This document shows, piece by piece, positions 2,786 through 54,376 of a DNA stretch of 64,000 bases. Location of the stretch: positions 1 to 64,000 of the forward strand of contig CANJYB010000020.1 in the NCBI GenBank assembly GCA_947479085.1. The letters run 5' to 3'. The translations under genes were made by a program, and so were the position numbers. This stretch comes from Bacteroidota bacterium. Lineage in GTDB: Bacteria; Bacteroidota; Bacteroidia; 2-12-FULL-35-15. Below the pieces are notes generated by a model that did not search any database, was not told the origin of the DNA, and saw only the letters and a program-made list of their open reading frames with translations. How positions within the stretch are numbered: the stretch's first letter is position 1; every line of letters begins with the position of its first letter.

Positions 2786-2955
2786 GTAAAAGTTTATTCC
2801 CTCTTTAAGTGCTTATGTTAAAGGCTAGCTGGTTTGCAATGGCCTTGGCTTTAATCATTTTGATAAGTTGTGCTTTCGATTTAGTACAAAAAAGAACACT
2901 AACTCATACATTAAAGACAATTACAAAACGCTGATTATGTGCAATATGCAGTTAG

Positions 2956-3207
2956 GAAGTAAGCAAAAAGGATTCTTTTCGCATCCTTATCAACAGGGAA
3001 GTGAGCAAAAGGGATTCATTTCGCTTACTTGGTAACTGGGAAGTAAGCAAAAGAGATTCATTTCGCTTACTTGGTAACTGGGAAGTGAGCAAAAGAGATT
3101 CATTTTGCTTACTTGGTAACTGGGAAGTGAGCAAAAGAGATTCATTTTGCTAACTTGGTAACTGGGAAGTAAGCAAAAAGAGTTCTTTTTGCTTACTTGC
3201 CTGTTGG
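2956..3207. repeat. Array A: six tandem 42-bp units with an internal 12-bp-arm hairpin
   Basis: Units start at 2956, 2998, 3040, 3082, 3124, 3166 with no indels. Consensus GAAGTRAGCAAAAGAGATTCATTTYGCTTACTTGGTAACTGG; AAGTAAGCAAAA/TTTTGCTTACTT inverted repeat. Outer IR CCTTATCAACAGG (2985-2997) vs CCTGTTGgacATAAGG (3200-3215). Confidence 0.95.
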
Positions 3208-3351
3208 ACATAAGGCCAAATGGAAAAAAGTAGCTCATCTTTAAAACCATAGATAAATAACTCCAATCAATATATAATGAAATCCCGAATGAAAGATGCG
3301 GAATGACAGATATGGGATTTTTTCATTAAAAATTTTGTTAAAACTTTATTA

Positions 3352-13595: not shown

Positions 13596-13721
13596 TTTTC
13601 AAAATAAAATGCGAAAGTATAGTTTTTAGATTAAACACAGACAAAAGGTTTTTACAATAAAAATCCTTTGAAAATATTAATGGGTTCTCCATTAATTTTT
13701 AATCCGGAATACCCAAATTTC

Positions 13722-13931
13722 AAACTATGTCACTGAAACGCCAAACTATGTCACTGAAGGAGCAAACTGTGTCACTGAAACGATAAACTGTGTCACTGAA
13801 GGACTAAACTGTGTCACTGAAACAGTAAACTGTGTCACTGGAGGAGCAAACTGTGTCACTGAAACCATAAACTGTGTCACTGAAGGACTAAACTGTGTCA
13901 CTGAAACGGTAAACTGTGTCACTGATGAAAT
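13722..13931. repeat. Array B: ten 21-bp units in alternating (42-bp) register
   Basis: Starts 13722, 13743, ..., 13911, all exactly 21 bp apart. Core AAACTRTGTCACTG; odd units 1-9 continue GAAAC, even units 2-8 continue with a GAAGGA-like sequence (unit 10 diverges). Central GTG-T-CAC dyad. Outer IR AAATTTCA (13715-13722) / TGAAATTT (13926-13933). Confidence 0.95.
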
Positions 13932-18440: not shown

Positions 18441-20588
18441 ATGAGAATAAAGCAGTATCTCATATTAATTATGTTCGCTGCTTTTTCAATAAAAAGTTTC
18501 GCCACCCATATTGTGGGTGGCGAAATTTATTATGATTGTTTGGGAAACAACAATTATAAAATCACACTCAAAATTTACAGGGATTGTTGTCCCACTTGCG
18601 CTCCCTTTGATAGCCCTGTTCCCTATTTAGGATTATTTAATAGTGCAGGAGGACTTATTGATACTATTAATATGGGAATTCCTGTTATCACTCCGCTTCA
18701 GAATACAATCGTAAATCCATGTTATTCTTTTCCTAATAATGTTTGTGTGGAAGAAGGGATGTATACCAAGACTATTAACCTGCCTCCCATTCCCGGAGGA
18801 TACGTAATGTCTTATCAAAGGTGTTGCAGAAATTCTTCGATTCTTAATATAGCGAATGCTTCAAATGTTGGCTCAACTTATCAAATCCCGATTTTAGATA
18901 ATTCTATAGTTAACTGTAACAGTTCACCCCGTTTTACCTACTTTCCTCCACTTTTTGTATGTGTGGGGATGCCTTTGGTATTTGATAATTCTGCTACTGA
19001 CCCAAATGGAGATTCTTTATATTATGATATGTGCGAACCATTTGAAGGTGCAGACCCTAATGCTCCTCAACCTGTGCCACCTGCCGCTCCTCCTTATAAT
19101 TTTGTAACCTATAGTCCTCCTTACTCAGGTTCTTATCCGATGAGTTCTTCGCCTGCTTTTACCATTAATCATTTTACGGGTCTCCTAACAGGAACCCCTA
19201 ATATGATTGGCCGATGGGTGGTAGGGATTTGCGTTAAAGAATACCGTAACGGAGTTTTGCTTACTACCAACAAAAGAGATTTTCAGTTTAATGTAACCAA
19301 CTGTCCCATTATTTCAGCATCCACAATTCCTAAACAAACCACTTTTTGTTTTGGTTATACTGTTAATTTTTCAAATTCGAGCATCAATGCCTTCAGTTAC
19401 CACTGGGATTTTGGCGACCCTACCTCCACTGCTGATACTTCCAATATTTCCAATCCTTCCTGGACCTATGCGGATTCAGGTGTTTACGTGGTAACTTTAA
19501 CTATTAATATGGGTACCCCTTGCTCTGATACTGGGCAAACTACCTTTTATATTTATCCTCATCTTGCACCTGTCTTTACTCCACCGCCCGGACAATGTGT
19601 TTACGACAATCATTATAATTTTACTGTAGGTGGCGATTACATGGGCAACGGAACTTTTACCTGGAATTTTGGTCCTCATGCTACACCATCTAGCAGTACG
19701 CTCGAGAATCCAACCAATATAGTTTTTGATTCTGTTGGCTCGTTTCCCGTCACCATTACTGTTGCAGAAAATGGTTGTTCGGCCAATTATACTGCTAATG
19801 TGATAGTCTATCCTAAACCGGATGCTGATTTCGATATGGTTTCAACGGTAGCCTGTGCGCTGCATCCTGTTTATTTTGCTGATAGTTCTCATGCTGACAC
19901 CCCTCTTTCTTACGCATGGAACTTTGGTAACAATACTTCTTCCAACCAGCAAAATCCAAGTGCTATATACCAACTGCCCGGAAATTATAACGTTTCGCTG
20001 ATAGTAACCACCATGCATGGCTGCAAAGACACAGTTAATAAGGTCAATCCTTTGCAGGTATTTCCTTTACCGACTGCTGCCTTTGTGGTAACGCCTACTG
20101 ATACTTCCATTTTTTATCCTGATGTGGCCATGACCGACCATAGTGTCTCTGCGGTAAGTTGCGAAGTTTTCTGGGGCGATGGCACCACAGGAACCAATTG
20201 TAATGGTCTTCATTCTTATACCAAACCTGGCATCTATCCCATTACACAGGTGGTCACCAATATTTACGGTTGTACCGACACGGCAAGGTCGCAGGTTATC
20301 ATCCGTCCCGAATTCCGCTTTTGGGTGCCCAATGCTTTTACCCCGGGAGGCGATGGTTTGAACGAGGTATTTAAGCCTGTACTCATTGGTGTTCACGACT
20401 ACCAGTTTTCCATTTTCAACCGCTGGGGAGAAAAACTATTTGAAACCACCGACCTGAATGAAGGTTGGAATGGAACTTATAAAGAAAATGAAGCCGCTTC
20501 GGATGTATTTGTTTACAAAATAACTTTTAGAGATGATGTAGAAAACCTGTTTCATCAATATATAGGAAGTGCAACATTGATAAGATAA
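18441..20588 (+). CDS. PKD-domain protein with gliding-motility-associated C-terminal domain
   Basis: THIVGGEIYYDCLG N-terminus, PKD repeats, PNAFTPGGDGLNEVF...FNRWGEKLF. Confidence 0.88.
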   Translation: MRIKQYLILIMFAAFSIKSFATHIVGGEIYYDCLGNNNYKITLKIYRDCCPTCAPFDSPVPYLGLFNSAGGLIDTINMGIPVITPLQNTIVNPCYSFPNNVCVEEGMYTKTINLPPIPGGYVMSYQRCCRNSSILNIANASNVGSTYQIPILDNSIVNCNSSPRFTYFPPLFVCVGMPLVFDNSATDPNGDSLYYDMCEPFEGADPNAPQPVPPAAPPYNFVTYSPPYSGSYPMSSSPAFTINHFTGLLTGTPNMIGRWVVGICVKEYRNGVLLTTNKRDFQFNVTNCPIISASTIPKQTTFCFGYTVNFSNSSINAFSYHWDFGDPTSTADTSNISNPSWTYADSGVYVVTLTINMGTPCSDTGQTTFYIYPHLAPVFTPPPGQCVYDNHYNFTVGGDYMGNGTFTWNFGPHATPSSSTLENPTNIVFDSVGSFPVTITVAENGCSANYTANVIVYPKPDADFDMVSTVACALHPVYFADSSHADTPLSYAWNFGNNTSSNQQNPSAIYQLPGNYNVSLIVTTMHGCKDTVNKVNPLQVFPLPTAAFVVTPTDTSIFYPDVAMTDHSVSAVSCEVFWGDGTTGTNCNGLHSYTKPGIYPITQVVTNIYGCTDTARSQVIIRPEFRFWVPNAFTPGGDGLNEVFKPVLIGVHDYQFSIFNRWGEKLFETTDLNEGWNGTYKENEAASDVFVYKITFRDDVENLFHQYIGSATLIR

Positions 20589-20739
20589 AGCGTTATTTCA
20601 GGTGATTTTTCTTTGTCTTTTTACTTTTTTAAGCTTCCGGTATATTATAATCAGCTGATTTTAACCAGCGAAAGAATGAAAATCCAGGTTCTTTGAGATA
20701 ATTACTTTAGAAATAAAAGTGCAAAAAATAGTGGAGCCT

Positions 20740-21009
20740 CCTGTGTTCGAGCGCAGGGCGTCCCACTGTTTAGTGGATAGGCCTGCACACATGAGCAGGA
20801 CATGCTACTATTTAGTAGATAAGCCTGCACACATGCTCAGGACGTCCCCCTGTTTAGTAGATAGGCCTGCACACATGAGCAGGATGTTCCACGGTTTAGT
20901 GGATAAGCCTGCGCTCAAGCGCAGGACATGCCACTATTTAGTAGATGAGCCTGCACTCGAACACAGGACGTTCCACTGTTTAGTGGAATATCCTGCACAC
21001 ATGCGCAGG
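20740..21009. repeat. Array C: 42-bp units each carrying two hairpins
   Basis: Hairpin CCTGC...GCAGG starts at 20740, 20782, 20824, 20866, 20908, 20950, 20992 (exact 42-bp period). Second hairpin CCACTGTTTAGTGG lies between them. Dyad centres are 21.0 bp apart within the unit. Confidence 0.95.
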
Positions 21010-21215
21010 CGGTATTTGAATTCTAAAACCTTTTAAATCTCACAAACGAATATCTTTCACCACGAAAAGAATCTTAGTTTTTCTTTGAATTCAGAAGAGA
21101 TTTCTGCGATAAATCCTCCTGCAAATCATACTTTGGTAATACTTTGTTAATTATTAATTAACACATGCTGTTCAACTAATTCGGATATTTACATCGTTTT
21201 TAAAACAAAAACCAA

Positions 21216-21899
21216 ATGAGTACAGCAGCAAAAATTTTATTAGTGGATGATGAAACAGATATACTGGAATTTCTTTCCTATAATCTGAAAAAGGAAGGAT
21301 ACGATGTATATACCGCCACTAATGGCAATGAAGCCATTGCCATTGCAAAAAAAGTGAGCCCCCAGCTTATTATTCTTGATGTGATGATGCCGGATATGGA
21401 TGGAATAGAAACCTGCAGGGAGATACGTGCTTTACCCGGTTTAAAAGATGTAATGGTGGCATTCCTTACTGCCCGCAACGAAGATTACTCGCAGATAGCA
21501 GGTTTTGAGGTAGGTGCAGATGATTATATTAATAAACCCATTAAGCCCCGCGTATTAAGCAGCCGGATAAAAGCCCTCCTTAGAAGAGGAACCACAGAAG
21601 TTGCAACTGGTGATAAAACAACAGACCTGGGTGGAATAAAAATTGACAGAGAACGATTTGTAGTGATAAAAGATGGAAAGGAGTTCAACCTGCCTAAAAA
21701 AGAATTCGAATTAATGGAACTACTGGCTTCCAAGCCCGGAAAAGTGTTCACCCGCGATGTTATTCTTGATAAAGTTTGGGGAGGAGATGTGGTGGTAGGC
21801 GACAGAACCATTGATGTTCACGTTCGCAAACTCCGCGAAAAACTCGGTGACGATTACATCAAAACAGTAAAAGGAATCGGTTACAAATTTGAGTTTTAA
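21216..21899 (+). CDS. OmpR/PhoB-family response regulator
   Basis: Receiver LLVDDETDILEFL, LDVMMPDMDG, winged-helix VGDRTIDVHVRKLREKLG. Confidence 0.93.
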   Translation: MSTAAKILLVDDETDILEFLSYNLKKEGYDVYTATNGNEAIAIAKKVSPQLIILDVMMPDMDGIETCREIRALPGLKDVMVAFLTARNEDYSQIAGFEVGADDYINKPIKPRVLSSRIKALLRRGTTEVATGDKTTDLGGIKIDRERFVVIKDGKEFNLPKKEFELMELLASKPGKVFTRDVILDKVWGGDVVVGDRTIDVHVRKLREKLGDDYIKTVKGIGYKFEF

Positions 21900-39601: not shown

Positions 39602-39878
39602 TTTTTTACCCATTTTTCACCTTAACTACTTTTTGAAAGTCTGATTTTTTACCTTTTTCCTACCTAGCTGATTGCCTAAGTATATATTTCTTTAGAATTT
39701 TCTATCTAGCTATATGGTAAGGTACACTTTTCTTTAACTTTTCTTACCTAGCTGACTGGTAAGGTACAAAATCCTAAAGAAATATCGACCTTACCAGTTG
39801 CCTAAGTACAAATTTCTAAAGAAATATCGACCTAGGCAGTACACATTTTCAAGTAGTTAGCGTTTTAGGGGTAAAAAA
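39602..39878. repeat. Array D: 42-bp-period dyad array with terminal inverted repeats
   Basis: Units at 39661, 39703, 39745, 39787, 39829 share phase TAYCTAGCTGA.TGGTAAGGTAC / GACCT. Dyads TACCT..AGGTA and ATTTCTaaAGAAAT have centres 21 bp apart. Outer IR TTTTTTACCC..TAACTACTT (39602-39631) vs AAGTAGTTAG..GGGTAAAAAA (39851-39878). Confidence 0.88.
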
Positions 39879-54125: not shown

Positions 54126-54376
54126 CCTCCATTTCTACTTTTCCTTTAAGAAAAAGTATCTTTTATTACAGGAAGAATTGTTTTTCTTAAAGAGAGACAA
54201 GGTTTTCTTTAAGAAAAAATACTTTTCTTAAAGAATAAGTAGTTTTTCTTAAAGAATCTTTTCATTTTCTTAAAGCGAAAACAGGTTTTCTTATTAAGAA
54301 TCTAGTTTTTCTTAAAGAAAAAATACTTTTCTTAAAGAAAATCTACCTTTTCTTAAAGAAAAAGTAGAAATGGAGG
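54126..54376. repeat. Array E: 21-bp-period palindrome array bounded by 33-bp terminal inverted repeats
   Basis: CTTAAAG/CTTTAAG cores at 54144, 54186, 54207, 54227, 54248, 54269, 54290 (CTTATTAAG variant), 54311, 54331, 54352 (21 bp apart, two 1-bp slips, one degenerate at ~54165). TIR 54126-54158 vs 54344-54376, 31/33 matches. Confidence 0.93.

Follow-up and report, generated by a model that had tools for sequence, protein, structure and literature searches.

The intergenic region upstream of an OmpR/PhoB-type response regulator gene carries a strictly regular series of short hairpins, which raises the question of whether they act as RNA, encode a repetitive protein, or reflect a process at the level of DNA. 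The window analyzed here, a 64-kb stretch of DNA, is contig C20 of a 4.28-Mb Bacteroidota genome (G000); its relevant features are collected in table 1.

Geometry and Genomic Setting of the Focal Array

The regularity described by the first-pass annotation is confirmed. The starts of seven CCTG..CAGG dyads are spaced by exactly 42 bp (20740, 20782, 20824, 20866, 20908, 20950, and 20992), and there are indeed two hairpins per 42-bp unit, with a CCACT..AGTGG dyad, or a variant of it, between successive CCTG..CAGG dyads. The centers of the alternating dyads are exactly 21.0 bp apart. The 42-bp unit is not composed of two similar 21-bp halves, and the 21-bp step is found only in the dyad centers. 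Self-match at lag 42 in the focal intergenic region reaches 0.465, versus a maximum of 0.342 at any lag in 500 shuffles, and the dyad score is 0.73 versus 0.55 in column-permuted arrays (P = 0.005). Longer periods, at 84 and 126 bp, are also present, and thus the units are not independent of each other. With tandem units in the range of roughly 10–100 bp, the array fits the definition of a minisatellite, and it is single-copy within its genome.

Table 1. Coordinates of the Focal Array, Its Neighbors, and the Other Arrays of the Window
Feature	Position	Strand	Description
Upstream PKD-domain protein with CHU_C type IX secretion signal	18441..20588	+	Pfam
105-aa ORF spanning the array	20719..21036	+	GTG start, frame open; artefact, 42 bp = 14 codons
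Left arm of inverted pair (AAATAGTGGAGCCTCCTGTGTTCGAGCGCAGG)	20726..20757	.	Holds unit-1 dyad; 28/32 versus reverse complement of right arm
Focal minisatellite	20740..21009	.	Six complete 42-bp units, each with two dyads, and a seventh CCTG..CAGG dyad
Right arm of inverted pair	20950..20981	.	Holds unit-6 dyad (CCTGCACTCGAACACAGG)
Conserved upstream block of the regulator	21130..21200	+	TTGTTAAT..TTAAT..TTTAACA-like repeats plus TATTTAC (-7-like) element
OmpR/PhoB-type response regulator	21216..21899	+	PF00072, PF00486
Array, 42-bp unit	2955..3199	.	One of at least four dispersed copies in genome
Array, 21-bp monomer, 42/84-bp higher-order repeat	13721..13925	.	Unrelated sequence
Short array, period 41–42	39687..39768	.	
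Array, 21-bp monomer	54136..54367	.	Inverted CCTCCATTTCTACTTTT on its flanks

The composition of the array offers a clue to how dyads may arise. Unit 1 (CCTGTGTTCGAGCGCAGG) is unlike the other units: 17 of its 18 bases agree with the reverse complement of unit 6, versus 15/18 for its best direct match. The RNA fold pairs the ends of units 1 and 6 as one long stem. This inverted pair and a 7-bp TTTAGAA/TTCTAAA pair are the only inverted repeats at the focal array, and similar mirror symmetry is found in a minority of other arrays. Since unit 1 approximates an inverted copy of unit 6, copying can yield both dyads and changes that look paired.

A distance of 206 bp separates the array end from the regulator ATG, in agreement with the value of about 200 bp given earlier. 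Most orthologs of the genus (L009–L027) have in common an upstream block of the form TTGTTAAT..TTAAT..TTTAACA..TTTAC, which from its sequence is the probable promoter and operator of the regulator. The block resembles direct-repeat (Pho-box-like) autoregulation sites. Because it lies between the array and the ATG, the regulator transcript probably starts downstream of the array, and the suggested location of the array in the 5′ UTR of the regulator is unlikely. In the relative G005, the PKD/CHU_C ortholog adjoins the regulator with an array-free spacer of 118 bp, versus 628 bp here.

Base Pairing and Coding Potential

A hairpin array in an untranslated region, controlling the response regulator or the upstream transcript, would be in line with the strong RNA folding of the focal region (z = -8.3), which combines short hairpins with the long inverted stem. 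Yet the region folds well with DNA parameters too (z = -6.4), as expected for any inverted repeat; no terminator-like site was found, and no Rfam match anywhere in the 64-kb window. The first-pass annotation further pointed to compensatory-looking changes in the hairpins. Unit 2 (CTACTATTTAGTAG) does show a C-G pair replaced by T-A, with both arms changed, but units 3 and 5 have a right-arm change (AGTAG) with an unchanged left arm, so that joint change of the two arms is not the whole story. Likewise, the extended pairing reported for unit 5 (CCTGCGCTCAAGCGCAGG) is real but is shared by unit 1. Paired changes are no more frequent than shuffling produces, either in the focal array (1 compensatory pair vs. 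0.9 expected, with 344 of 500 shuffles reaching 1) or in the dyad-bearing arrays genome-wide (31 compensatory cells vs. 31.8 expected), where array L032:14445 is the single one with compensatory cells above chance. The dyad arrays of the genome also show no G-U strand asymmetry (120 G-T cells vs. 103 A-C cells), and their dyad cores are not more conserved than the linkers (column entropy 0.66 vs. 0.67, P = 0.92). No array of the focal sequence was found at orthologous loci. With no covariation, no strand asymmetry, and equal core and linker entropy, selection on RNA pairing in these arrays is not supported; considering also the probable regulator promoter downstream of the array, RNA-based control seems very improbable. 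A model of a sequence-specific dyad core with a free linker was rejected as well, since conservation is equal in both and variability clusters only between adjacent columns.

The 105-aa ORF fares no better. Its frame is open and 42 is divisible by three, as a translated protein of 14-aa repeats would have it, but there is no Pfam match, its codon-position bias is not significant (P = 0.28), and arrays with 41- and 44-bp periods exist. Open frames over 44 arrays of the genome number 64, versus 63 expected, and codon-position bias is found in none of 40 arrays. The earlier judgment that the ORF is an artefact thus holds, and the probability that it is translated is negligible. Coding heptad repeats were rejected on the same grounds, the number of open frames and the codon-position bias both being at chance. 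The sequence of the focal array gives no support for a role as RNA hairpins or as protein-coding DNA.

The 21-bp Period in This Genome and in Relatives

The focal array is one of many. In 864 kb sampled from the 4.28-Mb genome, we found 51 intergenic arrays, 40 of which have a best period of 21, 42, or 63; other periods include 41 (three arrays) and 44 (one array). By extrapolation, the whole genome may hold very roughly 250 arrays. Over 106 kb of intergenic DNA, the lag spectrum shows peaks at 21, 42, 63, and 84, with few hits at other lags. Unit sequences are mostly unrelated between arrays, and the median length of 21-type arrays is about 210 bp. Dyads are enriched at P < 0.05 in 11 of 44 arrays of this genome and in 7 of 21 in relatives, while many arrays have no dyad at all. 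Indels are few, banded alignment giving 30–50 gap openings against about 1,650 mismatches; array detection is biased towards indel-poor arrays, and the indel deficit relative to non-21 arrays is not significant (50 gaps per 1,631 mismatches vs. 5 per 72, P = 0.09).

Individual loci illustrate the range of forms. L032:13879-14140 is a very regular array with 12.5 copies of AACCTCCCACTGAGTGGGAAC, and the same intergenic region holds two more 21-bp arrays of unrelated sequence. A clean 22/44-bp array at L044:14477-14767 is the chief exception to the 21-bp rule in the genome. Although most arrays are single-copy, the element at 2921-3246 of the window has dispersed copies at C13:57592, C5:127042, and C10:52537, next to unrelated genes, and C5:176541-176866 keeps both ends of this element with a different 42-bp core. 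A second dispersed family has two copies in the genome.

Several relatives carry arrays too: G024 has 1.9 per 100 kb, and the densities of G015, G004, and G021 lie between 3.5 and 3.8. Multiples of 21 account for 15 of 16 arrays in G015 and also dominate in the other three genomes, while other sampled members of the genus have few or no arrays. Outside the genus, 21-bp-period arrays occur in Flavobacterium soli and in a Bacteroidales MAG, that is, in other Bacteroidota families. A small sample of non-Bacteroidota loci gave array periods of 30, 37, 41, and 52. The Firmicute Mammaliicoccus fleurettii has a 41-bp intergenic array of similar geometry, with GGACCG..CGGTCC dyads (L208:8160-8461).

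The comparison between species, based on one genome per species, points to some persistence of array loci. Among eight testable loci (arrays of this genome for which the sampled DNA includes an orthologous flanking gene), three have an array in both species; with a chance background of about 0.08 to 0.09, this sharing is only modestly above chance. The units of L045 and L076 are unrelated, those of L060 and L141 agree in part at the boundary (GCAAGTCCGAAAA), and those of L066 and L223 have a palindromic core in common with different spacers. Within G015, L247:17860-18050 and L253:1152-1352 both consist of a AAATAGTACTATTT palindrome plus a 7-bp spacer and match unit for unit. We rejected these as a dispersed array pair, as they share more than 600 bp, which fits a segmental duplication.

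Origin and Possible Role of the Arrays

The nearest described cases come from Porphyromonas gingivalis. The BrickBuilt MITE is one sequence family with a 23-nt minisatellite core and leader and tail sequences, present at several loci per genome and with IS5-like terminal inverted repeats in 19 copies (PMC4596501). PgRS/MITE464 is one repeated element with 41-nt repeats and terminal inverted repeats (PMC4596501). The arrays described here are similar to BrickBuilt in their Bacteroidota host, an intergenic core of about two helical turns, predicted long stem-loops, and presence at several loci; with PgRS they share an intergenic position in a Bacteroidota genome and a unit of about 41–42 bp. A mobile MITE-like element with a minisatellite core would also account for the dispersed 2921-3246 family, including the locus with the same ends and another core, for the second two-copy family, for inverted repeats flanking some arrays, as in CGCAAGTCCGAAAA/TTTTCGGACTTGCG at the ends of G015 L141, and for the array-free G005 locus. 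The arrays, however, are mostly single-copy and unrelated in sequence, and the focal array, unique in its genome, has an intergenic tandem core but no defined ends and no dispersed copies sharing a leader and tail. Apart from the 7-bp pair and the inverted unit pair, it shows no terminal inverted repeats; these are not general in the arrays (3/43 at score ≥12), and even the dispersed family ends without a clear terminal inverted repeat or target duplication. By this analogy, the focal array would be at most of a similar DNA-level kind, not a member of either family, and a mobile origin is unlikely. Like REP/BIME elements, the arrays include intergenic palindromes, but their sequences are unrelated, whereas REPs form a single family of sequences associated with RAYT transposases. 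RAYT-type transposases were rejected as a source, the five Y1 matches being not unusual, as was reverse transcription, with no PF00078 match in the genome.

A constant 21-bp monomer across unrelated sequences could also reflect an array for in-phase protein binding, in which two-turn spacing would align sites, or bends, along the same face of the helix and a protein would coat or bend the spacer near promoters, serving as a regulator, insulator, or supercoil buffer upstream of them. In agreement with this, arrays are over-represented in divergent intergenic regions (13/37 vs. 69/390, P = 0.036) and never come closer to a gene start than 53 bp; the A-base signal at the 10.5-bp harmonic exceeds permutation (z = 4.7), and the palindromic core is retained between L066 and L223. 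Against such a role, units differ between arrays, so that no single sequence-specific protein fits, many arrays are dyad-free, dyad cores are conserved no better than linkers, and low harmonics are raised in general rather than the 10.5-bp one alone. We regard in-phase binding as a minority possibility.

The explanation we favor, with somewhat better than even confidence, is that the focal array represents a minisatellite at the DNA level, noncoding and with a monomer of 21 bp (two helical turns), which changes by block duplication and inverted copying. As in bacterial VNTRs and minisatellites, the arrays would grow and change through duplication of blocks of monomers, here of 42, 63, 84, and 126 bp. 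In some of them, inverted copying between units would give rise to dyads, making both hairpin arms seem to change together, and it is this copying, rather than selection on RNA, that may have made the dyads. A DNA-level constraint, either a fixed copying step or in-phase placement on the helix, would hold the monomer at 21 bp. Some array loci would pass by descent from species to species as their units are replaced, and other arrays would be gained or lost. Against this account, pure helical phasing would permit periods of 31–32 bp too, and none was seen among the arrays; the dyad enrichment could come from function instead of copying; and the lack of similar 21-bp halves in the focal unit, the nonsignificant indel deficit, and the modest locus sharing also weigh against it. 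Minisatellites in general are not known to keep a single exact unit length when their sequences within a genome are unrelated, and our literature search, mainly of openly available papers, returned no description of 21-bp-phased intergenic arrays in Bacteroidota. More tentatively, we put forward that Bacteroidia may possess a sequence-independent, DNA-level system that builds or maintains 21-bp intergenic arrays, keeping period and locus while replacing the unit.

For the reading of such loci, inverted copying can generate both hairpins and paired changes within a tandem array, and an RNA-structure interpretation therefore needs a shuffle test. Should the pattern be borne out, a period constraint independent of sequence would be common to many intergenic spacers in a bacterial class; such a constraint, if true, would point to a new copying process or to an in-phase nucleoprotein structure.
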